Positions 10,085 through 56,898 of a stretch of 57,168 nucleotides of DNA are shown here, in pieces. The stretch comes from an uncultured Eubacteriales bacterium (GTDB lineage: Bacteria > Bacillota > Clostridia > Christensenellales > Aristaeellaceae): contig CADCHI010000010.1 in assembly GCA_902801165.1 (NCBI GenBank), positions 1 through 57,168 on the forward strand. The letters run 5' to 3'. The translations under genes and the position numbers were made by a program. Every line of letters starts with the position of its first letter. Within the stretch, counting starts at the first letter, position 1. The notes below the pieces were generated by a model. The model did no database searches. It saw nothing but the letters and a program-made list of their open reading frames with translations, and was not told the origin of the DNA.

Positions 10085-10183
10085 CGATCCTACCTCCTTC
10101 GGTTCGATATCAAGGATGCGCAGACCGCCGCCGTCCGGCTCGCACCGGGGCGGCGGCGGTCCTCCGCGCATCGTGCTTCAATA

Positions 10184-33180: not shown

Positions 33181-35994
33181 TTACTGCTCCGTGGGATAGT
33201 CGCTCTTGCCGGTGATCTTCCGCTTGATGATCTTCCCCATGCGCTTGAGGGCGTAGGGACCCACCAGCTTCATCATCTCCTCGGCGGTGTGCATGTCGCT
33301 GGCCGCGGGCAAATCGCGGGACAGGTGGATGGCGTCGAACTCGCACCGGGTGGTGCACAGGCCGCAGCCCACGCACTGGTTCAGGTCCACGATGCTCCGG
33401 CCACACTTCAGGCAGCGGCCCGCCTCCTTCTTGATCTGCGCCTCCGTCAGCGGCAGCCGCAGGTCGCTGAAGGTCTCCCGGGCCTCGCCGGGCTTCAGGC
33501 CGGGGGCCTGCCGCGGGGCGTTGTCGTAGCCCTCCACGCGGATGTCATCCCGGTTCAGCTCGATGAACTGGCGCAGGTCGCGGCCGATGGTCATGGACTG
33601 CCCCGGATGGACAAAGCGGTTGATGGAGGTCATGGCGGCCTTGCCCTCGGCGATGGCGTCGATGGCGAAGCGCGCGCCGTGGAAGATGTCGCCGCCCACG
33701 AACACGTCCGGCTCGGCGGTCTGCAGCGTCACCGGGTCCGCCTCGGCGGTGCCGTTGCGGCGCACGACCACCTTGCTGCCCTCCAGGAGCTTCCCCCACT
33801 GGGCGGACTGGCCGATGGCCATCAGCACATGGGAGCAGGCGATGGTCTTAGTGTCGTTCTCGTCATACTGGGGCGCGAAGCGGTGCTGGTCGTCGAACAC
33901 GCGGGTGCAGCGCTTGAACACGATGCCGGTCACTTTGCCGTTCTCGGTCAGGATCTCCTTGGGGCCCCAGCCGTTCTCCACGGCGATGCCCTCGTGCAGG
34001 ATCTCGGCCACCTCGTCCTTTGCGGCGGGCATCTCGTCCCGCTGCTCCAGGCACAGCATGGTCACGCTGCCCTTGGTGCAGCGCAGCGCCGTGCGGGCCA
34101 CGTCAGCGGCCACGTTGCCGCCGCCGACGACCACCACGTCGCCGTCCAACTGCACATTGCCCTTCAGGTTCACGTCCTTCAGGAAGGCCACGCCGGAGGA
34201 CACGCCCTCGGCGTCCTCGCCGGGCACGCCAGCCATGCGGCCGCCCTGCATGCCGATGGCGATGTAGAAGGCCTTGTAGCCCTGGGCCCGCAGCTGATCG
34301 AGGGTGACGTCCTTGCCCACCTCGACGCCGCAGCGGATCTCGGCCCCGGCCTTTTCGATGATCTCGATCTCCCGCTGGAGCACTTCCTTCTCCAGGCGGA
34401 AGCTGGGTATGCCGTTGAGCAGCATGCCGCCCGGGCGGGCTTCCTTTTCAAACACGGTGACGGGATAGCCCTCCTGCCGCAGGTACCAGGCGGCGGAGAG
34501 GCCGGCGGGGCCGGCGCCGATGATGGCGATCTTGTAGTCGTCCCACTGGTTGCCGTCGCCGTTCTCGCTGATCATGCCGAAGTTCTCCGGGTGGGCCAGC
34601 TCCCACTGGGCCAGGAACTTCTTGATCTCGTCGATGGCCACGGGCGCGTCGACCAGCCCGCGGGTGCAGCGGTCCTCGCAGCGGCGATTGCACACCGCGC
34701 CGCAGACCGCCGGGAAGGGATTGTCCTGGCGAATGAGGCGCACCGCGTCCTCGTAGCGCCCCTCGCCGGCCATTTTGATGTAGCCCTGCACGGCGATGTG
34801 GGCCGGGCAGGCGGTCTTGCAGGGAGAGGTGCCGGTGTCGTAGCAGTTCAGCTTGTTGTGGTCGCGGTAGTCCCGGTCCCACTTGTCCTGGCCCCAGACG
34901 TGGTCGTCCGGCAGGTCGTGCATCGGATACTTCACCTGACTGCCGTCGGCCCTGCACAGCTTCTGGCCCAGGCGCGCGGCGCCGGCGGGACAGACCTCCA
35001 CGCACTTGCCGCAGGCCACGCACTTCTCGGGGTCCACGTGGGCCCGGTAGGCGCTGCGGGACATGTTGGGCGTGTTGAACAGCTGGGAGGTGCGCAGGCC
35101 GTAGCAGCTGCCCGCCGAGCAGTTGCAGATGCCCACGATGCGGTTGGGGCCGTCCAGGTTGGTGATCTGGTGGACGTAGCCCTTGCGCTCGGCCCGCTGG
35201 ATGATCTCCAGGGCCTCCTCGCGGGTGATGTAGTGGGCGTCCTTGCCGCTCTCCACCAGGTATTCGGCGATGTCGCCCACGCCGATGCACATATAGCCCT
35301 CGATGTCGCCCACGCCCTCGCCGCGGATGCGCTGGGCCTTGCGGCAGGCGCAGACCATCTTGCAGAACTTGTCGTTCTTGTTCAGCCAGTGGGAGAGGTG
35401 CTCCACGCTGACGCTCTGCACCTTCGGGTCGATGGCCTTCTCCACGGGAATCACGTGCATGCCGATGCCCGCGCCGCCCGGCGGCACCAGCTTGGCCGCC
35501 AGCTCCAGCGGCTCCTGGGGCGCCAGATTGAACATCGTGGCCACCTCGGGATGCTCGTCCGGCAGGGTGGGATGCTCCACCATGTACTCGCCGGAGCCCA
35601 CCACCCACTTGGGGATCCAATATTGGATGTGCTGGTCGGCGTTGTCCCGGTTCTGCTCCAGTATGCCGATCCACAGCAGGTGGTCGATCACCTTCTGGGC
35701 TTCCGCCTCGCTCAAGTTGTTGCGCTGGGCCAGCTCCGGCGTGGTCAGGCCGGTGCGCCGCTTCTTGAAGGACAGCAAAAAGCGCACTTCGTCCTTGGTG
35801 AGCAGCCGGTCCAGGATCCAGAAATCCATGTGGTTTTCCTTCATGCCGCCCGGCAGCTTGCGGGGAATGTTGTCCGTGATCATCACGGCCAGCTTCTTGA
35901 CGAGCTTTTTCTTCTCGGGATCGTCGCAGTGGTGGCCGTTCACGGGGTAGTCCCTCTCGTTGACGTGGATCATCGGGTTGACTTCGTTGACCAC
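33181..35994 (-). CDS. Multidomain Fe-S flavoprotein, GltD-like (937 aa), copy 1
   Basis: A 937-residue redox protein. Residues 55-125 form a winged-helix-like region (LLTKDEVRFLLSFKKRRTGL, TPELAQRNNLSEAEAQKVIDHLLWIGILE). The next part has Cys in CKMVCACRK and GICNCSAGSC and a 4Fe-4S motif CVACGKCVEVCP. Then comes the GltD-type module: CKTACPAHIAVQGYI, CGAVCNRRCEDRCTRG, the FAD site IIGAGPAGLSAAWYLR and NADPH site VVVGGGNVAADVARTA. The C-terminus has a second ferredoxin pair: CLKCGRSIVDLNQCVGCGLCTTRCEFDAIHL. It would pass electrons between NAD(P)H and ferredoxin-like centres. GTG start 35994 with GGAGG seven bases upstream. A close paralogue lies at 54094. Confidence 0.85.
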   Translation of the reverse strand: MVNEVNPMIHVNERDYPVNGHHCDDPEKKKLVKKLAVMITDNIPRKLPGGMKENHMDFWILDRLLTKDEVRFLLSFKKRRTGLTTPELAQRNNLSEAEAQKVIDHLLWIGILEQNRDNADQHIQYWIPKWVVGSGEYMVEHPTLPDEHPEVATMFNLAPQEPLELAAKLVPPGGAGIGMHVIPVEKAIDPKVQSVSVEHLSHWLNKNDKFCKMVCACRKAQRIRGEGVGDIEGYMCIGVGDIAEYLVESGKDAHYITREEALEIIQRAERKGYVHQITNLDGPNRIVGICNCSAGSCYGLRTSQLFNTPNMSRSAYRAHVDPEKCVACGKCVEVCPAGAARLGQKLCRADGSQVKYPMHDLPDDHVWGQDKWDRDYRDHNKLNCYDTGTSPCKTACPAHIAVQGYIKMAGEGRYEDAVRLIRQDNPFPAVCGAVCNRRCEDRCTRGLVDAPVAIDEIKKFLAQWELAHPENFGMISENGDGNQWDDYKIAIIGAGPAGLSAAWYLRQEGYPVTVFEKEARPGGMLLNGIPSFRLEKEVLQREIEIIEKAGAEIRCGVEVGKDVTLDQLRAQGYKAFYIAIGMQGGRMAGVPGEDAEGVSSGVAFLKDVNLKGNVQLDGDVVVVGGGNVAADVARTALRCTKGSVTMLCLEQRDEMPAAKDEVAEILHEGIAVENGWGPKEILTENGKVTGIVFKRCTRVFDDQHRFAPQYDENDTKTIACSHVLMAIGQSAQWGKLLEGSKVVVRRNGTAEADPVTLQTAEPDVFVGGDIFHGARFAIDAIAEGKAAMTSINRFVHPGQSMTIGRDLRQFIELNRDDIRVEGYDNAPRQAPGLKPGEARETFSDLRLPLTEAQIKKEAGRCLKCGRSIVDLNQCVGCGLCTTRCEFDAIHLSRDLPAASDMHTAEEMMKLVGPYALKRMGKIIKRKITGKSDYPTEQ

Positions 35995-36043
35995 GGCATT
36001 TCCTCCTTCTATAGAGCCATCTCAAAATACAACATCGAGCAAT

Positions 36044-36095
36044 CCGTCCGCAGGGACGGCGGAAACACCTTCCCCGGGCGCCAATTATGGCGCCC
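36044..36095. repeat. Two-hairpin repeat-like element in the flavoprotein operon
   Basis: Hairpin CCGTCC / GGACGG (36044-36059) and a perfect hairpin GGGCGCCA / TGGCGCCC (36076-36095, loop ATTA), followed by CCTACGGCGG. The sequence GTAGGGGCGCC reads out on the minus strand, resembling a common interspersed motif of gut Firmicutes; I cannot confirm copy number from one window. Confidence 0.45.
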
Positions 36096-36191
36096 CTACG
36101 GCGGTTTTCTGTATCATCAATCAATGATTCCTTCGCATGTTGTTATTCTGAGGCAGCCCATGCTTTCGTCGTTTTCAGGCATCCCGCGCCA

Positions 36192-36319
36192 GGCAACAAC
36201 CCAAGCCGCCGTCTCTCGGCAATCTGACTGTTGCCTGATGCCTGTTGCCTGTTGCCTTTTCCCTTTTCCCTTTTCCCTTTTCCCTTTTCCCTGTTCCCTT
36301 TTCCCTGTTCCCTTTTCCC
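36192..36319. repeat. Heptanucleotide-repeat element 4, longest array
   Basis: Thirteen consecutive units from 36229 to 36319: TGTTGCC, TGATGCC, TGTTGCC, TGTTGCC, TTTTCCC five times, TGTTCCC, TTTTCCC, TGTTCCC, TTTTCCC. The last base is part of the stop codon of the 36319-37503 gene. A short reverse-complement unit GGCAACA lies at 36192-36198. Confidence 0.88.
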
Positions 36320-37503
36320 TACTCAATCGGTATCTTGATCGTCAAATCGCTGGTCGGGTACGCGGCGCAGGCGTGAACATAGCCGAAATCCCGGTCGGCG
36401 GCGCGGCGGCCGTCATTCTCCGGGCACACGTACACACTGCCGGAGAGCACCTTGGTGCGGCAGAAGCCGCACTCGCCGCTGCGGCAGCCGGTCTCGATGC
36501 GGATGCCCGCCCGCTCCAGCGCCACCACCAGGCTCTCGGTGGCCTTGGCGTCGATCACGTCCTCGTGGATGCCCCGGCGCACGGTCAGCTTGAAGGTCCT
36601 GTCCTTCAGTTCCATCGGGTAGCCCTCGAAGGTGGTGATGTCCTTCGCCTGGCCGAACACCTCGAAGCGCACGCGCCGGGCGGGGATGTCCAGCTTCTTG
36701 AGCTCCTCCCGCAGGAAGCGGTACATCACCTGCGGGCCGCAGATGAAGTAGGTGGTGTCGGGCGCGGAATACTTCTTGATGATCTCGGCGGAGAGGAAGC
36801 CCCTCTCCCCCTTCCAGTCGGGCTCGTCGCCCGAAAGCACGTGTACCACGTGCACGCGGTCGCCCTGGAGCGCCTCCAGCTCGTCCTTCAGGATGATGTC
36901 TGTGGAAACCACAGAGCCGTAGAGGATCGTCAGGTCCATGTCCAGCCTGCCCGCGGCGACCTCCCGCGCCATGGAGGCGAAGGGCGTGATGCCCACGCCG
37001 CCCGCCAGGGCCACGACGTGCTTCGCGTCGCGCAGGGGCTCATAGTAGAACTGGCCCAGGCCGATCTGGGCCGTGAACACGTCTCCGACCTTGACGTTGT
37101 CGTTCAGGTGGTCGCAGATGAAGCCGTCGCCCCTCGACCTGCGCACGGTGATCTCCACGAAGCCCTCCTTCCCCCTTGCCTGGCTGGGCGCGGAGGAGAT
37201 GGAATACGGGCGGGAGATGACGCTCTTGCCGATCTCGAAGTCGATGACCATGTACTGCCCCGCGTAGAAGAAGGGCAGTTCTCCGCCGTCCTCCCGGACG
37301 AAGCGGAAGGACTTCGCCGTGGGGCTCGCGGTCTTGATCCCGTCGACCTTCACGCGCAGGCGGCCCGGATGCCAGGCCCGGGCGACATCGCCGATGGGGT
37401 CCTCGCGCACAGGCGCAGCGGAAGCGGACTCAAAGGCCTCCAGGCGGGCCTTGGTGACGCGGGACGCGCCGCCCACGTCCTTCAAAAATCCCTTGACCTT
37501 CAT
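36319..37503 (-). CDS. FNR-type reductase with a C-terminal 2Fe-2S ferredoxin domain
   Basis: A 394-residue electron-transfer protein. The FAD domain shows GQYMVIDFEIGKSVISRPYSISSAP (RxYS flavin motif); the NAD(P) domain shows LAGGVGITPFASMAREV, and CGPQVMYRFL lies near the end of the reductase part. The C-terminal domain (about 305-394) is a plant-type 2Fe-2S ferredoxin: CRSGECGFCRTKVLSG and a fourth cysteine in VYVCPEN. It takes electrons from NAD(P)H to the 2Fe-2S centre. Its start overlaps the end of the CrtI-like gene (ATGA), so it is the likely reductase partner of that flavoprotein. Confidence 0.88.
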   Translation of the reverse strand: MKVKGFLKDVGGASRVTKARLEAFESASAAPVREDPIGDVARAWHPGRLRVKVDGIKTASPTAKSFRFVREDGGELPFFYAGQYMVIDFEIGKSVISRPYSISSAPSQARGKEGFVEITVRRSRGDGFICDHLNDNVKVGDVFTAQIGLGQFYYEPLRDAKHVVALAGGVGITPFASMAREVAAGRLDMDLTILYGSVVSTDIILKDELEALQGDRVHVVHVLSGDEPDWKGERGFLSAEIIKKYSAPDTTYFICGPQVMYRFLREELKKLDIPARRVRFEVFGQAKDITTFEGYPMELKDRTFKLTVRRGIHEDVIDAKATESLVVALERAGIRIETGCRSGECGFCRTKVLSGSVYVCPENDGRRAADRDFGYVHACAAYPTSDLTIKIPIE

Positions 37504-39029
37504 TTCGCCGCCTCCTCTGCCATGGTATCCAGCACGTTCTTAGCCGCCTTGCGGCCGTTGGTCACCGCCGGGCCCATGCCGTCGCCGGAGATGGCGTGGG
37601 CACCCGAGAACTCCAGGTGTTTGATGAAGCGCTCCGCCTCGGCGGTCTGCAGGCGGGCGATGATGTGGTCCTCCATCGTGTGGGCGTAGCCGTAGATGCA
37701 GCCGTTCCACGCGCCGGTGTAACGGGCCACGGTCATGGGCGTCTCGATCACCAGCTCCAGCACGTGGTCCAGCAGGTTCACGCCGAAGTAGGCCGACATG
37801 TCATCGATCAGCTGCTTGGCCACCCGGTGCTTCACTGCGTCGTAGTCCTCCGCCTTCACCGTCTTCCAGCCGTCCACCCGGGGCAGCACGGTGATGGAGA
37901 AGGAGCAGGTGCCCTCCGGCGTGCAGTCGGGGTTGCCGTAGTTGTGGCAGATGCAGGTCAGGTAGCGATAGGGTCCCAGGCCGGCCAGGTTCTTGTAGAG
38001 GGCGTCGGTGTCCATGGTGTCGCCCCGGAAGATGCTGTAGTCCCGGATGTTCAGCTTTTCTGCGGGCTGGTCCAGAATCATGATCACCGAGAAGGCGGTC
38101 AGGCTGAGCCTGCGCCCGTTGACCATCTTGACGGCTCCCGCGGGCACGGCGCTCGCCGGCTCGATCATCGAGGTGTACACCTTGTTTGGATAGGCGGAGC
38201 AGATCACGTAGTCCGCGTGGATCTCGTCGCCCCTTGCGGTGCGCACGCCGTAGGCTGTGCCGTCCTTCACGAGGATCTTGTCCACCTGCTGGCGGTACTC
38301 GATCTGCACGCCCATGGCCTCGGCGCGCTCCGCCATCTTCAGGGACATCTCGTGGCTGAACTTACGGGGAATGAAGGAGCCGTAGCCGATGTAGTCCGCC
38401 ATCAGCACGGAGAAGATGGTGAAGGGCAGGTCCGAGAAGCCGCTGCCCACGTAGATCCAGTAGGGCGCCAGCAGGTCCAGCGCCTTCTGGGGCAGCTGGA
38501 AGGTGTCCAGCACCTCCTTGGTGGAGTAGCCCGCGGTCTTGACGAAGGCCTCGTGCTTGAGCAGCATCATGGGCTTGCTCATGGGGTGGATGGACAGCTC
38601 GTTCACGCTGTCGAACACGGTGTGGCACAGGTTCAGCAGCCGCAGCACCTTGTCATAGGTGCCGGGAACCGCGGCGTCCACTTCCTTGGCGAAGCGCTCC
38701 AGGCCCGGGTGCAGCGTGACCTCCAGCCCCGGCAGCGAGGCGTGATAGGCCTCCGGCACCTTTAGCCAGTCGACATCCACGCCCATGTCGTCGAAGAACT
38801 TGCCCACCTTCAGGCGGTTGTCCTTGTCGCCGATGCTCATCATCTCGTGGAGCGCGGCCTCGATTTCGATGCCGCCGCGCACGAAGCTGGTGGCGATGCC
38901 GCCGGGCAGGTTGTGGCGCTCCAGCACCAGCACGTCCTTGCCCTTGTCGGCCAGCATCAGCGCTGCGGACAAGCCCGCCAGCGCGCCGCCCACGACGATG
39001 ACGTCGTAATGATCCTTATAGAATTTCAT
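37500..39029 (-). CDS. Phytoene-desaturase/carotenoid-isomerase-like flavoprotein
   Basis: A 509-residue FAD protein of the CrtI/CrtISO/retinol-saturase superfamily. The N-terminal dinucleotide motif is DVIVVGGALAGLSAALMLADKG with E in LVLERHNLPGGIATSF; the C-terminal FAD segment includes GAHAISGDGMGPAVTNGRKAA. Superfamily members desaturate, isomerise or saturate C=C bonds in polyenes. No carotenoid genes are near, and the neighbours are a fatty-acid isomerase-like protein and a reductase, so a fatty-acid or polyene substrate is likely (inference). ATG 39029 with GGAG seven bases upstream is preferred to GTG 39035. Confidence 0.8.
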   Translation of the reverse strand: MKFYKDHYDVIVVGGALAGLSAALMLADKGKDVLVLERHNLPGGIATSFVRGGIEIEAALHEMMSIGDKDNRLKVGKFFDDMGVDVDWLKVPEAYHASLPGLEVTLHPGLERFAKEVDAAVPGTYDKVLRLLNLCHTVFDSVNELSIHPMSKPMMLLKHEAFVKTAGYSTKEVLDTFQLPQKALDLLAPYWIYVGSGFSDLPFTIFSVLMADYIGYGSFIPRKFSHEMSLKMAERAEAMGVQIEYRQQVDKILVKDGTAYGVRTARGDEIHADYVICSAYPNKVYTSMIEPASAVPAGAVKMVNGRRLSLTAFSVIMILDQPAEKLNIRDYSIFRGDTMDTDALYKNLAGLGPYRYLTCICHNYGNPDCTPEGTCSFSITVLPRVDGWKTVKAEDYDAVKHRVAKQLIDDMSAYFGVNLLDHVLELVIETPMTVARYTGAWNGCIYGYAHTMEDHIIARLQTAEAERFIKHLEFSGAHAISGDGMGPAVTNGRKAAKNVLDTMAEEAAK

Positions 39030-39060
39030 AAACACACTCCAATTCAGGGCAAAGGGAACG

Positions 39061-39147
39061 GGAATTGAGAAGGAGCGGCCCCAATCGGGGCCCTGTCGTT
39101 TCGACGGACTCGATTCTCAATTCCCAATTCTCAATTCCCAATTATCA
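39061..39147. repeat. Heptanucleotide-repeat element 5
   Basis: Right arm 39113-39147: ATTCTCA, ATTCCCA, ATTCTCA, ATTCCCA, ATTATCA; the last unit contains the stop codon of the 39145-40533 gene. Left arm, 39054-39071: GGGAACG, GGAATTG, AGAA (reverse complement). The core is a perfect hairpin GGCCCC / GGGGCC (39077-39092). Confidence 0.82.
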
Positions 39148-40533
39148 GAAGAACCGTTCCACCAGCTCGCGGCTGTACTCGGCGGTCTCGTCCATGTCGC
39201 CGAAGCTCATGATCTCGCCGGCATAGAAGGTGTCGTACTTGCCCTGCATGGCCTCGACCTTGTCATACCAGCCCGCGGCATAGTCCTCGCTGAACACATG
39301 CGGGAAGTAATAGACGCTCCACTCGTTGACCACCTTGGAGGCCGGGTTGTTCATGACCTTCAGGTCCTCCAGCACCATGCTGCGGCACTTGTCGTAGGGG
39401 ATCTCCTTGCTGTCCTTGTGCTTGCGCAGGGAATAGGTGGTGATGACCTGGTCCTTGGTGTCGCGCCAGCGGCGATAGTACACCATCAGGTGGCCCAGGC
39501 GCTCCGGCACCATGTTGTCAAACACATAGTAGGAGATCTCCGGGTGATCCTCGGGCTTGGTTTCGCAGGCCAGCACGTCGTAGCGCTCGTAGTCGATCTT
39601 GCTGAACAGCGCGCGCTCGTCCTCGCGGGCGTCGAAGTAGTCCACCATGCCCACCTGGCCGTCCTTGCGCTTGTTGGGGATGTACAGCGGCGCGGTGACG
39701 ATGATTTTGTCGTACTCCTCCACCTTGCCGTTCACGGTGACGTACACCTTGCCGTCCTTGCGCTCGACCTTGTCGATCTTGCTGTTCAGGCGAGCGGGAT
39801 GCGCCAGGTGATCGTTCAGCTGCTCCCAGATGTACTGGGTGCCGTTCTTCCAGGTCCACAGGTTGATCTTCACGAAGTTCATGCAGGTCTGGAAGTCCAG
39901 GTACTTCAGCACGTAGGCCGCGGGGATCTCGTCAAAGTAGCCGTAGCCGAAGGAGGTGAAGGGCCCGATCCAGATGTCCTGCACCAGGTCGACGCCGTTG
40001 ATCTCGCAGAACTTCTTGAAGGGCAGGGCCAGATCCTTCAGGTTCGGGTTCTCGCCGCTGACGGGCTGGCGCTTGGCGCTGGCGGCGGAGAAGCCCTCGT
40101 AGCGACCCTCGGCAACGCCGCGATGGCCGTTCAGGTCATAGCCCTTGTACTTGGTCTCCAGCAGCTCGCCGAAGCGCTTCAGCTGCTTCTTCATCTTCAG
40201 AAGGCGGGGGATCTTCAGGATGTTCTTCTTCGGCTCGAAGGGCTCGATCACCTTGCCCTGGCCGTTCTTGTAGTTGCGGTTCAGCTTCGGGCCGTCGTGG
40301 GTGATGCCGCAGAACTCCTCCACGTCGTGCACGGCGTAATAGGAGGGCACGCCCATGATGGCGCCCATCTCGTAGCGGCGGCCGTTGTAGGTCGGGGACC
40401 AGCACTTGCCGCCGACGCGGTCCAGGCGCTCGAGGATGGTGTAATTGTTGTAACCCTTCTTTTCAAGGTACATGCCCGCGGACAGGCCGGCAGGGCCGCC
40501 GCCGACGATGCAGATGCGCGTATTCTTATCCAT
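39145..40533 (-). CDS. Polyenoic fatty acid (linoleate) isomerase-like flavoprotein
   Basis: A 462-residue FAD amine-oxidase-fold protein. From memory of the family, its conserved segments match the Cutibacterium acnes polyunsaturated fatty acid isomerase (PAI, makes trans-10,cis-12 conjugated linoleate): GGGPAGLSAGMYLEKKGY, GGKCWSPTYNGRRYEMGAIM, YVLKYLDFQTCMNF, ERLGHLMVYYRRW, YYFPHVFSEDYAAGWY and FYAGEIMSFG near the end. The protein is about 40 residues longer than that enzyme, with an insert around 95-140. ATG 40533 follows AGGAGGAATTCACC. First gene of the minus-strand redox operon. Activity must be tested; a close relative with other lipid substrates is possible. Confidence 0.75.
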   Translation of the reverse strand: MDKNTRICIVGGGPAGLSAGMYLEKKGYNNYTILERLDRVGGKCWSPTYNGRRYEMGAIMGVPSYYAVHDVEEFCGITHDGPKLNRNYKNGQGKVIEPFEPKKNILKIPRLLKMKKQLKRFGELLETKYKGYDLNGHRGVAEGRYEGFSAASAKRQPVSGENPNLKDLALPFKKFCEINGVDLVQDIWIGPFTSFGYGYFDEIPAAYVLKYLDFQTCMNFVKINLWTWKNGTQYIWEQLNDHLAHPARLNSKIDKVERKDGKVYVTVNGKVEEYDKIIVTAPLYIPNKRKDGQVGMVDYFDAREDERALFSKIDYERYDVLACETKPEDHPEISYYVFDNMVPERLGHLMVYYRRWRDTKDQVITTYSLRKHKDSKEIPYDKCRSMVLEDLKVMNNPASKVVNEWSVYYFPHVFSEDYAAGWYDKVEAMQGKYDTFYAGEIMSFGDMDETAEYSRELVERFF

Positions 40534-40572
40534 GGTGAATTCCTCCTGACATATTTGCAGATACCTGACGAT

Positions 40573-40581
40573 ATTATAACA
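40573..40581 (-). promoter_or_regulatory. Extended -10 promoter of the isomerase-like redox operon
   Basis: TGTTATAAT on the minus strand, about 40 bases before the start; the -35 region is T-rich. Confidence 0.5.
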
Positions 40582-40713
40582 CAGATGCGCCAAAAAAGAA
40601 GCGTCCAAAGGGCGCTTTGGCAAAAATTCAACACATTTCTTTCTGACTTTGCCATTTATTTGCCGAATATTTCGTTTTTTCAGCCGCAGCACCTTCCTCA
40701 TCAGGAGAAAACA

Positions 40714-40722
40714 TGCTATAAT
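40714..40722 (+). promoter_or_regulatory. Extended -10 promoter of the acyl ligase-ACP-thioesterase operon
   Basis: TGCTATAAT. Predicted transcription start near 40729. It is about 135 bases from the divergent isomerase promoter. Confidence 0.55.
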
Positions 40723-40731
40723 TGACTTGTG

Positions 40732-40747
40732 TGTGCCGCGCGGCACA
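40732..40747. promoter_or_regulatory. Perfect 16-bp palindrome at the acyl ligase transcription start
   Basis: TGTGCCGC followed by GCGGCACA, at about +3 to +18. It may be an operator for a dimeric repressor or a leader hairpin. No match to a named operator was recognised. Confidence 0.45.
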
Positions 40748-40764
40748 GAAGGAAGGTGTCATCC

Positions 40765-42120
40765 TTGCGCCATACCGATTTCCTGTCCATGCTGGACGCA
40801 TGGGCTTCGAAAAAAACCGCCCTCCCGGCCCTGCGATATGCCGGGGCGAAGGGGCTCGAGACGTTGACCTACGCTGCCCTGGCCGAGGCCGTACGCGCCC
40901 GAGCGGAGGCGCTGCGCTCAAGTGCGACCGGCTGCCTGGGCGTGCTGTGCGATGGAAGCGCCGCCTGCGTGATCGAGATCCTCGCCGCGGCGGCCGCAGG
41001 CCTCCAGACTGCGCTGCTGGACGGCCTCGCCAACGAGGGCCTGCTTGCCGAGCAGATCGCCGCCGCGGATGTGGACACCCTCTGGGGCGACGATGAGCTC
41101 CGAGAGATCCTCTCCCCCGCCCTGCGACCCGAACCCATCGGGCGCACCGGAAACATTCTGTTCTTCACCTCCGGCACGGCCCAGGCGGCCCGGGCGGTGG
41201 CACTCACAGAGAAGAGCCTGTGCGCCAGCGCCTGGAACGGCGGCACGTTGCTGCCGCTGGCCCCCGGGGACGTATTGCTGTGCATGCTGCCGCTGAACCA
41301 CGTGTTCGGCTTCGTCTGCGGGCTGCTGTGGGGACTGTCCTGCGGTGCCTGCGTGGCCCTGGGCCGGGGCCCGCGCCACTACGCGGACGACTGCGCCTGC
41401 TTCAAGCCCACCGCCCTGCCCGCGGTGACGATGCTGCTGGATTTCCTGACGCGGGCCAACGCGCTGAACCCGGAATTGAAGCTGATCCTCGTGGGCGCGG
41501 GCCCCTGCCCCGCCCCGCTGCTGGAGTCGGTGAAGGCCCGGGGCATCCACGTGTCCTTCGGCTACGGCCTCACGGAGACCAGCTCCGGCGTGGCCCTGTC
41601 CCTGGGCGACGACCCCTACGCCATGACCGTCTGCCCTGACGACCGCGTTACAATCGCGCCGGACGGGGAGATCCTCATAGAAGCCCCCACCTGCATGATG
41701 CGCGGGTACTACAACGCGCCGGAGGCCACCGCCGCCGTCCTGTTGGAAGGCGTGCTCCACACCGGCGACCTCGGCTCCCTGGACGACGAAGGCAGGCTGC
41801 ATGTCACCGGTCGCAAGAAGGACATGCTGGTCCTGAGGGACGGCACGAAGCTGTTCCTGCCGGAATACGAGGCCCGGCTCGCCCAGGTTCTTCCGGGAAG
41901 GGACTTCGCCGTGCTGGAGATCGACGGACGGCCCGCGCTCATCCTGCGGGGCCGGGAGGAGGAGCGGGAAGCCGTCTCCGCCGCCCTTGCGCCGGCCATG
42001 GCCGAACAGTCCCGGGGACGCCAGCTGAGCAAAATCATATTTGTATCCGAACCCCTGCCCCGGTCCGCCACCGGGAAGATCAAGCGCTGGGAGCTCCAGC
42101 AGAAAGTGGTGAACGCATGA
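40765..42120 (+). CDS. AMP-forming acyl ligase (acyl-ACP/CoA synthetase-like)
   Basis: A 451-residue ANL-superfamily enzyme, activating a carboxylic acid with ATP as acyl-AMP. The P-loop reads FFTSGTAQAARAV (a loose form of TSGTTGxPK). Adenine and Mg motifs are GYGLTETSSG and LHTGDLG; the hinge is GRKKDML; the A10 lysine is in SATGKIKRWEL. The following gene encodes an ACP with a four-base overlap, so the acceptor is probably ACP rather than CoA. Start TTG 40765 has GGAAGG eight bases upstream; the alternative ATG 40789 would truncate the N-terminus. Substrate, by context, a fatty acid. Confidence 0.8.
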   Translation: MRHTDFLSMLDAWASKKTALPALRYAGAKGLETLTYAALAEAVRARAEALRSSATGCLGVLCDGSAACVIEILAAAAAGLQTALLDGLANEGLLAEQIAAADVDTLWGDDELREILSPALRPEPIGRTGNILFFTSGTAQAARAVALTEKSLCASAWNGGTLLPLAPGDVLLCMLPLNHVFGFVCGLLWGLSCGACVALGRGPRHYADDCACFKPTALPAVTMLLDFLTRANALNPELKLILVGAGPCPAPLLESVKARGIHVSFGYGLTETSSGVALSLGDDPYAMTVCPDDRVTIAPDGEILIEAPTCMMRGYYNAPEATAAVLLEGVLHTGDLGSLDDEGRLHVTGRKKDMLVLRDGTKLFLPEYEARLAQVLPGRDFAVLEIDGRPALILRGREEEREAVSAALAPAMAEQSRGRQLSKIIFVSEPLPRSATGKIKRWELQQKVVNA

Positions 42121-42368
42121 CGCGCAACGAGATTCTGGAAGCCGCGAAGGAGATCATCTACGAGAGCGTGCCCGAGCTGGAGGGCAAGCCGCTGGACGAA
42201 TCCACCGTCATCAACACCGACACCGGCATCGACTCCATGGGCTTCACGCTGATCATGTGCCGCCTGGAGGCCCGGTTCGACACCAAGGTCCCCGACCGCC
42301 AGTGGCAGAAGCTGGCCACGCTGGGCGACGTCGTCTCCGCCTTTGAGAAGCGGATGCCGAAGGCATGA
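42117..42368 (+). CDS. Acyl carrier protein
   Basis: An 83-residue ACP. The phosphopantetheine site is TGIDSMGF with Ser40. The four-helix pattern is right and the sequence is acidic in the first half. It diverges from AcpP of fatty-acid synthesis (TGIDSMGF instead of GADSLD), as expected for a dedicated carrier. It overlaps the ligase upstream and the thioesterase downstream by four bases each (ATGA), a tight three-gene unit. It needs a 4'-phosphopantetheinyl transferase from elsewhere. Confidence 0.88.
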   Translation: MTRNEILEAAKEIIYESVPELEGKPLDESTVINTDTGIDSMGFTLIMCRLEARFDTKVPDRQWQKLATLGDVVSAFEKRMPKA

Positions 42369-43081
42369 TCTACCGCCAGAGCTTGAAGCTGCTCAGCAGC
42401 GACGTGGACATGTACCGCCGCCTGCGCCTGAGCCGCCTGTTCACGCTGTTCCAGGAGGCCGCCATCGCCCACACCGAGGCGCTGGGCATGGGCCGGGAAA
42501 AGACGCTGGACAAGGGCGTACTGTGGGCGCTGACGATGCAGCGGGTGATCGTGCGCCGCCTGCCGGAGTACGACGAGGCCATCGAGCTGTCCTCCTGGCC
42601 CGGTGAGACGATGCACGTGCTCTTTCCCCGCTACTATCGCCTGACGGACAGCCGGGGCGAGACCCTGGTGGACAGCTCCGCGCTGTGGGTGCTGATGGAC
42701 GCCCAGACCCGTGGGCGCGTATACCCCGACGACTACGGCATCGCGGTCCCCGGCGTGAAGCTGGGCGGCGAGCCGCCCCTGCCGCGGGTGCTGGGCATGC
42801 CCGGTGCCGGAGAGGTGCCCTTCACGGTGCCCTACAGCTACGTGGACCTGAACGGCCACATGAACAACGCCCGCCTGCTGGACCTGGCCGAGGACCTGAT
42901 GCCGCCTGCGCTGCGCGCGCAGCCCGTGGGGTCCATCGAGGCCGAGTACCGCGCCGAGGCGAAGCCCGGGGAGACGCTGATGCTGCGCGCCCAGCAGGAC
43001 GGCAGCCTGTTCAACCTCGCCGGGGACGGCGACGGCAGGCGCGTCTTCAACCTGCGGCTGGAGTACGCCGACGAAGCATAG
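42365..43081 (+). CDS. Acyl-ACP thioesterase-like hydrolase
   Basis: A 238-residue double hot-dog protein resembling bacterial acyl-ACP thioesterases of the FatA/FatB family. It hydrolyses acyl-ACP to the free fatty acid. Repeat 1 holds YRRLRLSRLFTLFQEAAIAH and WALTMQRVIVRRLP; repeat 2 holds SYVDLNGHMNNARLLDLAEDLMP, with the Asn/His pair typical of the active site (DLNGHMNN). It would release chains from the neighbouring ACP. Probably the third gene of the same operon as the ligase. Confidence 0.83.
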   Translation: MIYRQSLKLLSSDVDMYRRLRLSRLFTLFQEAAIAHTEALGMGREKTLDKGVLWALTMQRVIVRRLPEYDEAIELSSWPGETMHVLFPRYYRLTDSRGETLVDSSALWVLMDAQTRGRVYPDDYGIAVPGVKLGGEPPLPRVLGMPGAGEVPFTVPYSYVDLNGHMNNARLLDLAEDLMPPALRAQPVGSIEAEYRAEAKPGETLMLRAQQDGSLFNLAGDGDGRRVFNLRLEYADEA

Positions 43082-43110: not shown

Positions 43111-43773
43111 ATGGATTACGAAATCTTTGAGACCAAGACCCGGGCGCTGGCGGACAACGACGCCGCCGCGGAGCAGACCCGGGCATTGATGCGCGAGAAG
43201 GGCGCGAAGCTCGTCAACCTGATGGGCTCCCCCGGCGCGGGCAAGACTTCTGTGCTGCTGCGGCTCATCGAGGGGCTGAAGCCGCTGCGCGTGGGCGTGA
43301 TGGAGGCCGACGTGGATTCCGACGTGGACGCGCGGACCGTCTCCTCTACCGGCGCGCGGGTGATCCAGCTGCACACGGCGGGGCTGTGCCACATGGACGC
43401 GGACATGACCCGCCGAGGCCTGGAGCGCATGGGCGTGGAGGGCCTGGACGTCGTGTTCCTGGAGAACATCGGCAACCTGGTCTGCCCCGCGGAGTTCGAG
43501 GTCGGCGCGGACCTGCGCGTCGCCATACTCTCCGTGCCCGAGGGGGACGACAAGCCCCTCAAGTATCCGCTGATGTTCAGGACCGTCGACTGCCTGGTCG
43601 TGAACAAGCTGGACACGCTGCCCATCTTCGACTTCGACCTGGACAGGCTGCGCGGCCACATGGCGCGGCTGCGGCCGGAAGTGCCGGTGTTCCCCGTCTC
43701 CGCCCGCACCGGCGAGGGCGTGGCGGCGCTGGCGGGCTGGCTGAGGAACAGGCTGGGAGGCGAACAGGCATGA
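43111..43773 (+). CDS. hypB: HypB-type nickel-insertion GTPase, copy 1
   Basis: A 220-residue SIMIBI-class GTPase. P-loop GSPGAGKTS; switch-like EADVDSDVD; metal-site segment LCHMDADM with the Cys-His pair at the dimer interface; guanine motif NKLD. It lacks the N-terminal CxxGC and histidine-rich stretch of some HypB proteins. It works with HypA to deliver Ni to a nickel enzyme. A paralogue follows with a four-base overlap (ATGA). No hydrogenase or other Hyp gene is in the window. Confidence 0.88.
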   Translation: MDYEIFETKTRALADNDAAAEQTRALMREKGAKLVNLMGSPGAGKTSVLLRLIEGLKPLRVGVMEADVDSDVDARTVSSTGARVIQLHTAGLCHMDADMTRRGLERMGVEGLDVVFLENIGNLVCPAEFEVGADLRVAILSVPEGDDKPLKYPLMFRTVDCLVVNKLDTLPIFDFDLDRLRGHMARLRPEVPVFPVSARTGEGVAALAGWLRNRLGGEQA

Positions 43774-44432
43774 AGGTCATCGAATTGAAGGCGTCTGTCA
43801 CCGCCTCCAACGACCGGGACGCGGATGAACTGAGGCGGGAAATGCGGGAAAAGGGCGTGCTGCTGGTCAACCTGATGAGCGCTCCCGGCGCGGGCAAGAC
43901 CACCCTCCTCTCCCGGCTGATCCGGGATATGGACGGGACCCGCATCGCCGTCATGGAGGCCGACATCGAATCCGCCGTGGACGCGGAGCACATCGAGGCC
44001 CTGGGGGCCCAGGCCATCCAGGTACACACCGACGGCATGTGCCACATGGACGCGGGCATGACCGCCCGGGCCTGGCACGCCATGGACCCGGACGCCATCG
44101 ACCTGGCGGTGCTGGAGAACGTGGGCAATCTGATCTGCCCCGCCGAGTATGACACCGGCGCGGGCTGCAACATCATGATCCTGTCCGTGCCCGAGGGGGA
44201 CGACAAGCCCCTCAAGTACCCGCTGATGTTCTCCCGGTGCGACGCGCTGGTGATCTCCAAGCTGGACGCCCTGCCCTACTTCGGCTTCGACGTCGAGACC
44301 TGCGCCGCGCGGGCCCGGAAGCTGAACCCCGAAATCCGGGTGTTCCCCCTCTCCGCCAGGACGGGCGAGGGCATGGCCGAATTCGAGGCGTGGCTGCTGG
44401 ACCGCCTGGACGCCTGGCGCAGACGGCCCTGA
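43770..44432 (+). CDS. hypB: HypB-type nickel-insertion GTPase, copy 2
   Basis: A 220-residue second HypB. It has P-loop SAPGAGKTT, EADIESAVD, MCHMDAGM with the Cys-His metal site, and guanine motif SKLD. It is paralogous to the preceding gene over its full length, with shared segments such as PEGDDKPLKYPLMF. Both copies keep the catalytic motifs, so neither looks dead. Coupling of the two genes suggests a heterodimer, or dimers with different partners. The two probably arose by tandem duplication; HypB normally works as a homodimer. Confidence 0.88.
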   Translation: MKVIELKASVTASNDRDADELRREMREKGVLLVNLMSAPGAGKTTLLSRLIRDMDGTRIAVMEADIESAVDAEHIEALGAQAIQVHTDGMCHMDAGMTARAWHAMDPDAIDLAVLENVGNLICPAEYDTGAGCNIMILSVPEGDDKPLKYPLMFSRCDALVISKLDALPYFGFDVETCAARARKLNPEIRVFPLSARTGEGMAEFEAWLLDRLDAWRRRP

Positions 44433-44519
44433 CAAGTGCGTCCATCCGGAGGTGGATAGCCAATCCTGATCGCCCGAACACTGGGCGCACCCACCCCTGA
44501 CACAAGGCGCTCAACCACT

Positions 44520-44568
44520 CTCTCCACACTCCAAACTCCACACTCTCAACTTCAAACTCTCAACTTTC
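44520..44568. repeat. Heptanucleotide-repeat element 6 (between hypB copy 2 and hypA)
   Basis: Seven units in register: CTCTCCA, CACTCCA, AACTCCA, CACTCTC, AACTTCA, AACTCTC, AACTTTC. It ends just before the hypA ribosome site. No clear reverse-complement arm; a short hairpin (GCCCGAACACTGGGC, about 44472-44486) lies upstream. Confidence 0.78.
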
Positions 44569-44589
44569 AAAGGAACGGTGTTGTCGCAC

Positions 44590-44934
44590 ATGCACGAAAT
44601 GGGCATCATTCTGCACCTGGCCAAGACGCTGGACGAGACCGCCGAGCAGGAACAGCTGAAAACCATCAGCGAGGTCACGCTCCAGGTCGGCGAGGTCTCC
44701 GGCATCATGACGGACCTGTTCATTGACTGCTGGAACTACTTCCGCAAGAAGCATCCCGTGCTGACAGACTGCGAACTGGTGCTGGAGACCATCCCCGCCG
44801 TCACCTGGTGCGACAGCTGCAAGCGCACCTACGAGACCGTGAAGTACGGCCGGGAGTGCCCCTACTGCCACTCCCCGGAGACCTGGCTGCTGCGGGGCAA
44901 CGAATGCGTGATCAAGGAGATCGTGGCGGAGTAG
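44590..44934 (+). CDS. hypA: HypA nickel/zinc metallochaperone
   Basis: A 114-residue nickel chaperone. It begins MHEMGI, where the N-terminal Met and His2 bind Ni in this family. The zinc site is two CxxC pairs: CDSC and CPYC. ATG 44590 gives the correct MHE terminus, but the ribosome site AAAGGA lies closer to in-frame TTG 44581 or GTG 44578, which would add four or five residues and block Ni binding by the N-terminus. Codirectional with the two hypB copies. Confidence 0.88.
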   Translation: MHEMGIILHLAKTLDETAEQEQLKTISEVTLQVGEVSGIMTDLFIDCWNYFRKKHPVLTDCELVLETIPAVTWCDSCKRTYETVKYGRECPYCHSPETWLLRGNECVIKEIVAE

Positions 44935-54093: not shown

Positions 54094-56898
54094 ATGAAGG
54101 AACAAAAGAACCGCATGACCAATGCCTCCGACTTCCGGCAGTCCCCGAACTATTCGGCTCCGGACAAGGAGAAGGAGGCCCTCATCCTCAAGCTCGGCAT
54201 GATGATCACCGACCGCTACCTGGTCAAGTACACCCGCAGCATGAAGACCGACGACCCGGAGTACTGGGCGCTGGACGCGGTCATCACCAAGGAAGAGGCG
54301 AAGTTCCTGCTGAACTTCAAGAAGACCCGCGTGCCCTATGACGTCGAGACCCTGGCCCAGATGAACAACATGTCCGTGAAGGACTGCCAGAAGATGGTCG
54401 ATCACCTGGTCTGGGTGGGCCTGATCGAGATGAACCGCGAGAACGCCGACCACCACAAGCAGTACAACGTGCCCATCTTCGTGCCCGGCTCGGCGGAGTT
54501 CATGATGATGAACGACAAGCTGACCGAGGAGCACCCCCAGCTGGCCACGTTCTTCAACCTGATGACCCAGATGCCCCTGGAGAACATCACCCAGATGGTG
54601 CCCCCGGGAGGCAGCGGCGTGGGCATGCACGTGATCCCCGTGGAGAAGGCCATCGAGCACGAGAACCAGTCCGTCTCCGTGGAGCACATCTCCCACTGGC
54701 TGAGCAAGTATGACAAGTACAGCGTGGGCCAGTGCACCTGCCGCAAGCAGCAGACCATGCGCGGCGAGGGCAGCGGCCAGATCAACGGCGAGTTCTGCAT
54801 GGGCGTGGGCGACATGGCCGAATACTGCGTGGACAGGGGCATGGGCCGATACATCAGCTACGAGGAGGCCCTGGAGCTGCTGGAGCGCGCCGAGCGCCAT
54901 GGCTTCGTGCACCAGATCACCAACATCGACGGCGAGGACAAGATCGTCGCCATCTGCAACTGCGCCGCCGGCGTGTGCAACGCGCTGCGCACCTCCCAGC
55001 TGTACAATACCCCCAACATGTCCGCCTCCGCCTACCGGGCCCACGTGCAGACCGACAAGTGCGTGGCCTGCGGCAAGTGCGTGGAGGTCTGTCCCGTAGG
55101 CGCGGCGAAGCTGGGCCAGAAGCTGTGCAAAAAGAACGGCGAGAAGGTCCTCTACCCCCTCAGCGAGCTGCCCGACGCCGCCAAGTGGGGCGCGGACAAG
55201 TGGAACCCCAACTACCGCGAGGACGCCAAGATCAACTGCTACGAAACCGGCACCGCCCCCTGCAAGACCGCCTGTCCCGCCCACCTGGCCATCCAGGGCT
55301 ATGTGAAGATGGCGAAGGAGGGCCGCTACGCCGAGGCGCTGCGGCTGATCAAGCAGGACAACCCGCTGCCCGCGGTCTGCGGCGCGATCTGCAACCGCCG
55401 CTGCGAGGACGCCTGCACCCGCGGCACCGTGGACGACCCGGTGGCCATCGACGAGATCAAGAAGTTCATCGCCGCCCAGGAACTGCACGCCGACAAGCGC
55501 TTCATCCCCGTCTGCGAAAAGGACGACGGCGGCATGTGGGGCCCGGACTACAAGATGGCCGTGATCGGCGCGGGCCCCGCCGGCCTGTCCTGCGCCTACT
55601 ACCTGCGCACCCGGGGCTACGACGTGACCGTGTTTGAAAAGGAGCAGCGACCCGGCGGCATGCTGCTGAACGGCATTCCCAACTTCCGCCTGGAGAAGGA
55701 CGTGCTGGAGGCGGAGATCGACGTGCTGCGCCAGATGGGCGTCGAGTTCAAGTGCGGCGTGGATGTGGGCAGGGACGTCTCCATCCCCCAGCTGCGCAAG
55801 CAGGGCTACAAGGCCTTCTACCTGGCCATCGGCCTGCAGGACGGCCGCAAGGCCGGCGTGCCCGGCGAGGACGCCGCGGGCGTGGAATCCGGCGTATCCT
55901 TCCTGCGCAGGCTGGCCCTGGACAACACCGCGAAGCTGGAGGGCGACGTGGTGGTGGTCGGCGGCGGCAACGTGGCCGTGGACGTGGCCCGCAGCGCCGT
56001 GCGCGCGACCACTGGCAAGGTAACCATGCTGTGCCTGGAGGGCGAGAAGGAAATGCCCGCCGCGGACGACGAGGTGGCCGAGGCCAGGGCCGAGGGCATC
56101 CAGGTGATGAACGGCTGGGGCCCGAAGGAGATCCTCACCGAAAATGGCAAAGTCACCGGCATCGTGTTCAAGCGCTGCACCCGCGTCTATGACGAGAACC
56201 ACCGCTTCGCGCCGCAGTATGATGAAAACGACACCATCACCCTGTCCTGTGCCAACGTGCTGCAGGCCATCGGCCAGTCCGCCGTCTGGGGCGACCTGCT
56301 GAAGGGCACCAAGGTGGAGCTGCGGCCCAACGGCGGCGTCATCGCCGACCCGGTCACCTTCCAGACCGCCGACCCGGACATCTTCGCCGGTGGCGACATC
56401 TACCACGGCGCGCGCTTCGCCATCGACGCCATCGCCGAGGGCAAGCAGGGCTGCGAGTCCATGCACCGCTTCGTGCATCCCGGCCAGTCGCTGACCATCG
56501 CCCGCGACCTGCGGCAGTTCGTGGAGCTGGATAAGGACGACATCACCCTCCCCTCCTACGACAACGCCAAGCGCCAGGTGCCCGGCAGCACCGGCGTGGA
56601 GCCCAAGACCACCTTCTCCGACACGCGGCTGCCGCTGACGGAGGCGCAGGTCAAGGCCGAGGCCGCCCGCTGCCTCAGCTGCGGCGCGACCATCGTGGAC
56701 CAGAACCGCTGCATCGGCTGCGGCCTGTGCACCACCCGCTGCGAGTTCGACGCCATCCACCTGACCCGGGACTTCCCCCACGCCAGCGACATGGTGCGCT
56801 GCGAGGACAAGCTGCCCAAGGTAGGCGCCTACGCCATCAAGCGGGCGTTCAAGATCGCCTTCGGCAAGAAGGGGCCGACCAACCACACGGCGGAATAA
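54094..56898 (+). CDS. Multidomain Fe-S flavoprotein, GltD-like (934 aa), copy 2
   Basis: A 934-residue paralogue of the protein encoded at 33181. Same domain order: winged-helix-like N-terminal part (VITKEEAKFLLNFKKTRVPY), Cys in VGQCTCRKQQ and AICNCAAGVC, 4Fe-4S motif CVACGKCVEVCP, GltD-type module (CKTACPAHLAIQGYV, CGAICNRRCEDACTRG, VIGAGPAGLSCAYYLR, VVVGGGNVAVDVARSA) and the C-terminal ferredoxin pair CLSCGATIVDQNRCIGCGLCTTRC. ATG 54094 follows a GGGGGAGAAAGCA ribosome region. Single gene with a strong terminator, apart from any redox neighbour; the upstream gene is the diguanylate cyclase. Confidence 0.87.
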   Translation: MKEQKNRMTNASDFRQSPNYSAPDKEKEALILKLGMMITDRYLVKYTRSMKTDDPEYWALDAVITKEEAKFLLNFKKTRVPYDVETLAQMNNMSVKDCQKMVDHLVWVGLIEMNRENADHHKQYNVPIFVPGSAEFMMMNDKLTEEHPQLATFFNLMTQMPLENITQMVPPGGSGVGMHVIPVEKAIEHENQSVSVEHISHWLSKYDKYSVGQCTCRKQQTMRGEGSGQINGEFCMGVGDMAEYCVDRGMGRYISYEEALELLERAERHGFVHQITNIDGEDKIVAICNCAAGVCNALRTSQLYNTPNMSASAYRAHVQTDKCVACGKCVEVCPVGAAKLGQKLCKKNGEKVLYPLSELPDAAKWGADKWNPNYREDAKINCYETGTAPCKTACPAHLAIQGYVKMAKEGRYAEALRLIKQDNPLPAVCGAICNRRCEDACTRGTVDDPVAIDEIKKFIAAQELHADKRFIPVCEKDDGGMWGPDYKMAVIGAGPAGLSCAYYLRTRGYDVTVFEKEQRPGGMLLNGIPNFRLEKDVLEAEIDVLRQMGVEFKCGVDVGRDVSIPQLRKQGYKAFYLAIGLQDGRKAGVPGEDAAGVESGVSFLRRLALDNTAKLEGDVVVVGGGNVAVDVARSAVRATTGKVTMLCLEGEKEMPAADDEVAEARAEGIQVMNGWGPKEILTENGKVTGIVFKRCTRVYDENHRFAPQYDENDTITLSCANVLQAIGQSAVWGDLLKGTKVELRPNGGVIADPVTFQTADPDIFAGGDIYHGARFAIDAIAEGKQGCESMHRFVHPGQSLTIARDLRQFVELDKDDITLPSYDNAKRQVPGSTGVEPKTTFSDTRLPLTEAQVKAEAARCLSCGATIVDQNRCIGCGLCTTRCEFDAIHLTRDFPHASDMVRCEDKLPKVGAYAIKRAFKIAFGKKGPTNHTAE

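Follow-up and report, generated by a model that had tools for sequence, protein, structure and literature searches.

A cassette of six genes, here called C, B, D, E, F and G, is described from a stretch of 57,168 nucleotides (contig CADCHI010000010.1 of assembly GCA_902801165.1, the genome being 88.6% complete) of an uncultured Eubacteriales bacterium of the Aristaeellaceae; the whole of this stretch is referred to as the window. Sequence comparison makes it fairly probable that, in Clostridia of the ruminant gut, the cassette serves to isomerise and hydrogenate exogenous polyunsaturated fatty acids under anaerobic conditions. Within this reading we infer the substrate, the order of the steps, which double bond is moved, that C saturates, and what the acyl carrier protein (ACP) does. 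The cassette consists of the following features:

39145..40533, minus strand: D, a fatty-acid isomerase resembling PAI of Propionibacterium acnes (ATG start, 462 amino acids)
37500..39035, minus strand: C, an FAD oxidoreductase resembling CrtI/CrtISO, proposed to reduce (saturate) a conjugated fatty acid (GTG start; an alternative ATG start lies at 39029)
36319..37503, minus strand: B, a FAD/NAD(P)H reductase with a C-terminal plant-type 2Fe-2S domain, proposed electron donor of C
40729..42120, plus strand: E, an AMP-forming acyl ligase, proposed acyl-ACP synthetase
42117..42368, plus strand: F, a dedicated ACP
42365..43081, plus strand: G, an acyl-ACP thioesterase of the FatA/FatB type
40534..40728, no strand: the divergent intergenic promoter region between D and E

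Relatives of D were searched for in 84,980 species genomes, giving 302 stretches, of which the best 80 were kept with flanks of up to 10 kb. D is 86–98% identical in these 80 loci, a range that is partly a selection effect, weaker relatives being under-sampled. All six genes were present in 67 of the 80 loci, in every case on the strands seen in the window and in the strict order G-F-E, then D-C-B, over a median span of 6.7 kb and at most 8.1 kb. Nine of the other 13 loci were cut by contig ends and four (L034, L074, L078 and L080) had no E-F-G beside D. A sequence-only reading of the window had tied its shared pathway to a neighbourhood conserved in related genomes, and such a neighbourhood is found here, with E-F-G located elsewhere in the four exceptions. 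Open frames of at least 90 amino acids were compared all against all in 81 loci, the distant locus L087 being added to the 80. Only D, C, E, B, G, A, HypA, HypB and F occurred in 10 or more loci (A, HypA and HypB are treated below), and every other gene family was found in six loci at most, so that the surroundings of the cassette are largely unrelated. The all-against-all count for F was low (15 loci) because short frames were left out; by direct search F was present in 70 of the 80 loci, or 71 rows with the window.

Distant D loci were drawn from separate family samples, outside the best 80, and identities at L102 to L106 are tblastn values. The divergent layout was kept in L103 (D 69%, C 50%, B 54%, E 41%, F 40% and G 36%), L104 (D 62%) carried D-C-B-E-F-G as one run on the same strand, and L102 carried D-C-B. 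D stood beside A in L105 (D 53%), with HypA and two HypB genes nearby, and together with HypA and A in L106 (D 52%); C, B and E-F-G were not seen at either place. L087, from the window's own family (D 50%), was arranged as HypB-D-HypB-A-HypA. There are two architectures, one of D, C, B, E, F and G with or without A and HypAB, and one of D and A with HypA or HypAB.

A close G was found elsewhere in the genomes of L034, L074, L078, L080 and L102, with F adjoining in five of five and E in four of five. E was matched only in pieces in genome G726, with a gap before F, and E-F-G seemingly lies about 10 kb from D on the same contig in G594. Co-occurrence was also counted in 200 genomes from the family of G584, the genome carrying L060, using cut-offs of 1e-40 for D, 1e-60 for C and 1e-32 for G, the last chosen after weak generic thioesterases had appeared. 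D was found in six genomes (87, 83, 71, 64, 56 and 55% identity), C in five and a close G (1e-32 or better) in four, which were exactly the four with both D and C (hypergeometric 1.5e-8, kinship ignored). These counts bear on the idea that E-F-G is an ordinary operon for the uptake of exogenous fatty acids, standing by chance beside an isomerase locus. The opposite strands in the window would fit it, as would the often only 45–60% identity of E and G at loci that were chosen by D; we nevertheless regard it as highly improbable, given that E-F-G lies beside D in the 67 loci and L103, shares its run in L104 and is present elsewhere in all five exceptional genomes, and that a close G is missing from 196 of the 200 family members. 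The trend of D being closer to the window's gene than E and G are was also seen in L103 and L104, suggesting that D is under stronger constraint or has spread more recently.

D was identified by its sequence as a true homologue of PAI. In a phmmer comparison with PDB chains it scored 470 bits to 2b9w (PAI) and at most 41 bits to every other protein listed, and 226 of 416 aligned residues are identical (54%). The sequence-only reading had named placement of D in an unrelated amine-oxidase group as damaging to its case; D is closest to PAI instead. R86 and F220 of D correspond to R88 and F193 of PAI, which are reportedly the carboxylate and substrate-gate residues (Liavonchanka 2006). Both are invariant over the window, the 80 relatives and L087 (82 of 82 rows). 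By analogy with PAI, the reaction that we propose for D is the conversion of linoleic acid into a conjugated isomer.

C and B, on the evidence of their alignments and trees, have been exchanged together, repeatedly, within a standing locus. C at 68% identity or more was accompanied by B at 63–98% in 54 loci, and C below 68% by B at 49–54% in 22; the division at 68% was chosen after the gap had become visible, and trees then made each type one clade. No mixed type occurred among the 76 loci with both genes long enough, the pairing thus holding in 76 of 76, and each type formed a single clade, fully supported by SH-aLRT, in the tree of C and likewise in that of B. Placed on the D tree, a quick tree with SH-aLRT support that is weakly resolved (35 of 78 inner branches open), the C type changes at least nine times, four of the changes being forced by starred branches; on the E tree it changes 10 times, three of them forced. 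A four-base overlap of the two genes is seen in 54 of the 76 loci. From this paired swapping, B is very probably the electron donor of C; such a pattern would be expected of a reductase that serves C alone. B has the domains PF00970, PF00175 and PF00111 (FNR, NAD-binding and plant-type 2Fe-2S), and its Fer2 cysteines are kept in 75, 75, 75 and 74 of 75 rows. In NCBIfam this FNR-like protein is closest to the reductases of oxygenases and to NADH-oxidoreductase reductases.

C passes the cut-off of the broad Pfam family Amino_oxidase. Its best NCBIfam match was the carotenoid isomerase TIGR02730 (5e-32, 111.3 bits against a cut-off of 586.9), and it scored 84.8 bits to TIGR02734 (cut-off 238.1), both matches being near full-length. 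The AlphaFold model of C (pLDDT 83) was closest to 4rep, a carotenoid desaturase (TM 0.80/0.83), the other 49 fold matches listed having TM values of 0.54–0.64 by query length; C is thus predicted to have the fold of the carotenoid-desaturase superfamily. Carotenoid desaturases act on long polyenes, and retinol saturase is a comparable flavoprotein. C shares fold and near full-length matches with the carotenoid desaturases and CrtISO, below their cut-offs, but differs from them in having its own NAD(P)H/2Fe-2S reductase. We propose, by analogy, that C is a saturase of conjugated C18 acids rather than a mere isomerase.

The same data have to be weighed for a detoxification by isomerisation only, in which D would conjugate free polyunsaturated fatty acids, C with reduced flavin from B would act as a CrtISO-like cis/trans isomerase, and E-F-G would shuttle the safer acid to or from membrane lipid synthesis, with no hydrogenation. 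CrtISO-like enzymes need reduced FAD without net reduction, and the best NCBIfam match of C is one such isomerase. Biohydrogenation is moreover called a detoxification in a paper that also calls the producers of the trans-10,cis-12 isomer controversial (PMC9853040). Against this, the NAD(P)H reductase is paired with C in all 76 loci and a second electron protein, A, follows within 3 kb in 52, which is much electron supply for a redox-neutral reaction; we hold isomerisation alone to be rather unlikely.

E matched PF00501 at 5e-29, and its ligase core (TSGT, YxxTE, D347 and the A10 lysine) is kept in 70 of 70 rows. Judged from its overlap with F alone, E would move a fatty acid onto ACP and not onto CoA. 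F matched PF00550, and its phosphopantetheine serine is present in 71 of 71 rows, within DSM in 70. G was over the cut-offs of PF01643 (3e-20) and PF20791 and matched 2own at 1.6e-13; D161, N163, H165, N168 and E198 are kept in 70 of 70 rows, and this D-N-H-N/E set corresponds to the acyl-ACP thioesterase motif. No cassette gene matched a ketosynthase family in Pfam or NCBIfam, which indicates that the cassette processes acids and does not build chains. A different substrate was considered for these genes, D and C acting on a plant isoprenoid, phytol, a carotenoid or a hydroxy fatty acid and E-F-G on an acid derived from it. The carotenoid desaturases that neighbour C in fold and sequence would suit such a role, as would the lack of any fatty-acid-specific cut-off reached by E. 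The 470 bits of D to PAI, compared with 41 or fewer to other PDB proteins listed, and the fatty acyl-ACP type of G with invariant motif residues speak against it, and we consider it improbable.

In the mechanism proposed for isomerisation and hydrogenation, D would use FAD, as deduced from PAI, and would act on linoleic or linolenic acid in free form, bringing one of its cis double bonds into conjugation. C would then hydrogenate the conjugated product, yielding a monoene with a trans double bond or an acid of higher saturation. Electrons would pass from NAD(P)H to the FAD and 2Fe-2S cluster of B and on to C, and A, where present, would feed in further electrons, with NAD(P)H or else ferredoxin as their source. 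E would load the fatty acid on its private ACP, F, and G would release it, so that F either is the site of one reaction or serves to park and recycle the acid. A loader and a releaser in one operon would otherwise form a futile cycle, which favours a step tethered to the carrier; PAI uses free acids, and the tethered step is therefore more likely that of C.

Several observations weigh against this mechanism and the reading behind it. PAI acts on free acids, which makes an operon for loading ACP unexpected beside its homologue. C reaches no NCBIfam cut-off among the families shown, those of carotenoid enzymes included. E likewise falls below every NCBIfam cut-off shown, its best matches being o-succinylbenzoate-CoA ligases and then long-chain-fatty-acid-CoA ligases. 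In genomes G118, G665 and G677, D (50–53% identical) stands beside A and HypA or HypA/HypB without C, so D can work without C; thioesterase matches to G are weak there (29–33%), and B and E are absent from the stretches fetched, no genome-wide search having been made for them. Genome G671 has two C genes without D or a close G. All 80 record titles are those of uncultured organisms or metagenome-assembled genomes (MAGs). Finally, in a study of dairy cows, the cow groups differed in the isomerase type BBI and not reportedly in PAI (PMC10019597).

The two C genes of G671 were looked at individually. At L148 (G671:C16:21500-37432) C is paired with B and adjoined by a frame resembling glutathione peroxidase by eye, and at L147 (G671:C2:20500-40400) C is the last gene of a HypB-HypB-A-HypA-C run.

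Beyond the six genes, the window holds the following neighbours:

33181..35994, minus strand: A, a large flavoprotein with 4Fe-4S motifs and a module of the NfnL/GltD type, for accessory electron supply (GTG start, 937 amino acids)
43111..44934, plus strand: HypB, HypB and HypA nickel chaperone genes after G, optional neighbours
54094..56898, plus strand: A', a second copy of A

Residues of about 390–866 of A match the NfnL-type subunits 9bov and 8oh5 of the electron-bifurcating Nfn/Stn enzymes by sequence and fold, and no Pfam family had a best stretch in residues 1–315; the protein's own model is weaker (pLDDT 69.7). Compared with the Nfn/Stn large subunit, A thus adds an N-terminal part of about 315 residues, has more 4Fe-4S motifs and often has HypA/HypB neighbours. 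Of 76 loci, 52 have A on the strand of B and no more than 3 kb after it, 20 lack it there and four end within 600 bases; A is therefore an accessory member of the cassette. The sequence-only reading had given the locus dedicated electron carriers; the paired swapping of C and B upholds this for B, and A has to be reduced to an accessory. A' is 64–65% identical to A, shares its Pfam architecture and lies about 10 kb from the cassette. A homologue of A was also observed after G, in the order HypB-HypB-A-HypA, in nine of the 80 loci. The possibility that A is a family-wide housekeeping gene was rejected, four of 100 family members carrying it with the window's own genome counted.

Both HypB frames of the window were over the cut-off of TIGR00073, and HypA was over that of PF01155 and below that of TIGR00100. 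HypB occurs in 23 and HypA in 24 of the 80 loci, and L087 has both. HypB/HypA genes were seen to accompany A, whether with D, with C or by itself, at L087, L105, L106, L147, L094 and L095. The large subunit of NiFe hydrogenase (PF00374) was searched for in 51 carriers, comprising the window's genome and 50 of the genomes of the 80 loci. None was found in the window's genome and two of the 51 carriers gave a match over 69 of 508 positions; with the subunit nearly absent, hydrogenase maturation was rejected as the role of HypA/HypB in these genomes. An energy-conserving variant, in which A and B form a flavin-based bifurcating or confurcating device coupling the reduction by C of a conjugated fatty acid bound to F to ferredoxin, with HypA/HypB serving an unrecognised nickel-dependent partner of A, is a long shot in our judgement. 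If it were true, biohydrogenation would be more than a detoxification, namely an electron sink from which energy is gained.

The layout of the window was largely as the sequence-only reading had described it. Its seven genes, A to G, were present at the coordinates given, with the ATG at 39029 taken by it as the start of C, and Pfam, NCBIfam and PDB comparisons agreed with the families named. It had noted translational coupling of C and B and four-base overlaps in E-F-G; four bases are shared by C and B (37500-37503), E and F (42117-42120) and F and G (42365-42368), the last two with ATGA at both. The divergent gap, put by it at 230 bases, measures 195 to 255 bases according to the start codon chosen for E (GTG at 40729 to ATG at 40789), which agrees with that figure. 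A to D had been taken as one minus-strand run; the shared strand is correct, but A does not abut B, the gap being 324 bases compared with a median of 12 in 62 loci. A 7-base tandem repeat at 36228-36320 (score 118) occupies part of this gap. The extent given to the locus covered the seven genes and omitted HypB, HypB and HypA, which recur in relatives. Among 75 sequences of the region between D and E, TATAAT-like words were found and the word GTGCATTT or its complement occurred in 19, in some examples with a TATAAT-like box downstream of it. The word may represent an operator or a -35 element of unusual form; a k-mer search of the 75 sequences found promoter-like words only and no shared operator. 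Elsewhere in the window, a clostripain-family peptidase (PF03415) was observed at 7670-10171 on the minus strand.

A ruminant tag (host, organ or series name) was present in 67 of the 80 record titles, the remaining 13 being silent on origin; RUG, RGIG and RUI are taken as series names that denote ruminant origin. The idea that D belongs to the normal gene content of the family or phylum was rejected, as only two of 150 family members and one of 398 phylum members have it, and so was the same idea for C (one of 150 family members), the window's own genome being included in each count. Patchy presence and unrelated flanks suggest that the cassette has spread horizontally among gut bacteria. No transfer vehicle was found, and carriage on plasmids was rejected after a search of 72,556 plasmids gave only two weak matches (28.6% and 24.3%).

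The assignment of the contig to its genome was checked with a flanking ABC gene, which among 20 genus mates has counterparts of 97% identity in G808 and of 86% in G016, the others having only paralogues at 36–45%. G016 was without D, its contig stopping at the ABC gene, and G808 probably also carries the cassette. GC content at third codon positions was 0.87–0.95 in the cassette and 0.90–0.95 in the flanking genes. Given the ABC gene in two genus mates and this even composition, a misbinned contig is unlikely.

Gut fatty-acid isomerisation is reportedly also the subject of work by Song et al. (Nature, 2023). PAI is described as a single enzyme that yields trans-10,cis-12 conjugated linoleic acid (CLA) from linoleic acid (PMC2885616). 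D belongs to the same FAD-binding fold family and differs in its setting among a reductase pair and the genes of an acyl-ACP cycle. PAI homologues have been reported in seven of 228 MAGs from dairy-cow rumen, assigned to Lachnospiraceae, Oscillospiraceae and unclassified bacteria, and one Lachnospiraceae MAG with such a homologue was correlated with trans-10,cis-12 CLA in milk (PMC10019597). The passages of that report examined here treat the isomerase gene alone and mention no neighbourhood of reductase, ACP, ligase and thioesterase (PMC10019597). A CLA reductase activity has been described in Butyrivibrio fibrisolvens (PMC2654759, PMC12254105), no gene for a linoleate isomerase was found in genomes of Butyrivibrio (PMC6249431), and the electron supply of butyrivibrios has been discussed (PMC4478896). 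The isomerase and CLA reductase of B. fibrisolvens would share the chemistry proposed here, isomerisation and then reduction. Homologues of PAI in rumen genomes have thus already been published. No account of the cassette was found among the top-listed results of searches of open-licence PMC papers.

In Lactobacillus plantarum, CLA-HY, CLA-DH, CLA-DC and CLA-ER convert free polyunsaturated fatty acids through hydration into conjugated and partly saturated acids (PMC13365329). Oleate hydratase (MCRA, PF06100) was detected neither among 10 proteins of the cassette region nor in the window's genome, and was over the cut-off in three of the 51 carriers. With the hydratase nearly absent, the cassette is not the Lactobacillus route, a difference that the sequence-only reading had already drawn. 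Its further suggestion of an alternative biohydrogenation route is plausible from the sequences compared, and the ruminant origin of the loci adds weight to it. A shared function of the genes is far better supported by these comparisons than by the window alone, and the proposed chemistry is a strong hypothesis.

Rumen biohydrogenation turns plant polyunsaturated fatty acids into the saturated and trans fats of milk and meat, and its genes have so far been largely missing; its side branch to trans-10,cis-12 CLA is tied to milk-fat depression. If the proposed function is right, the compact six-gene cassette would provide a direct genetic handle on this process, as it could be assayed in Escherichia coli, counted in the metagenomes and metatranscriptomes of cows fed oil, and used to find the populations that hydrogenate fat.

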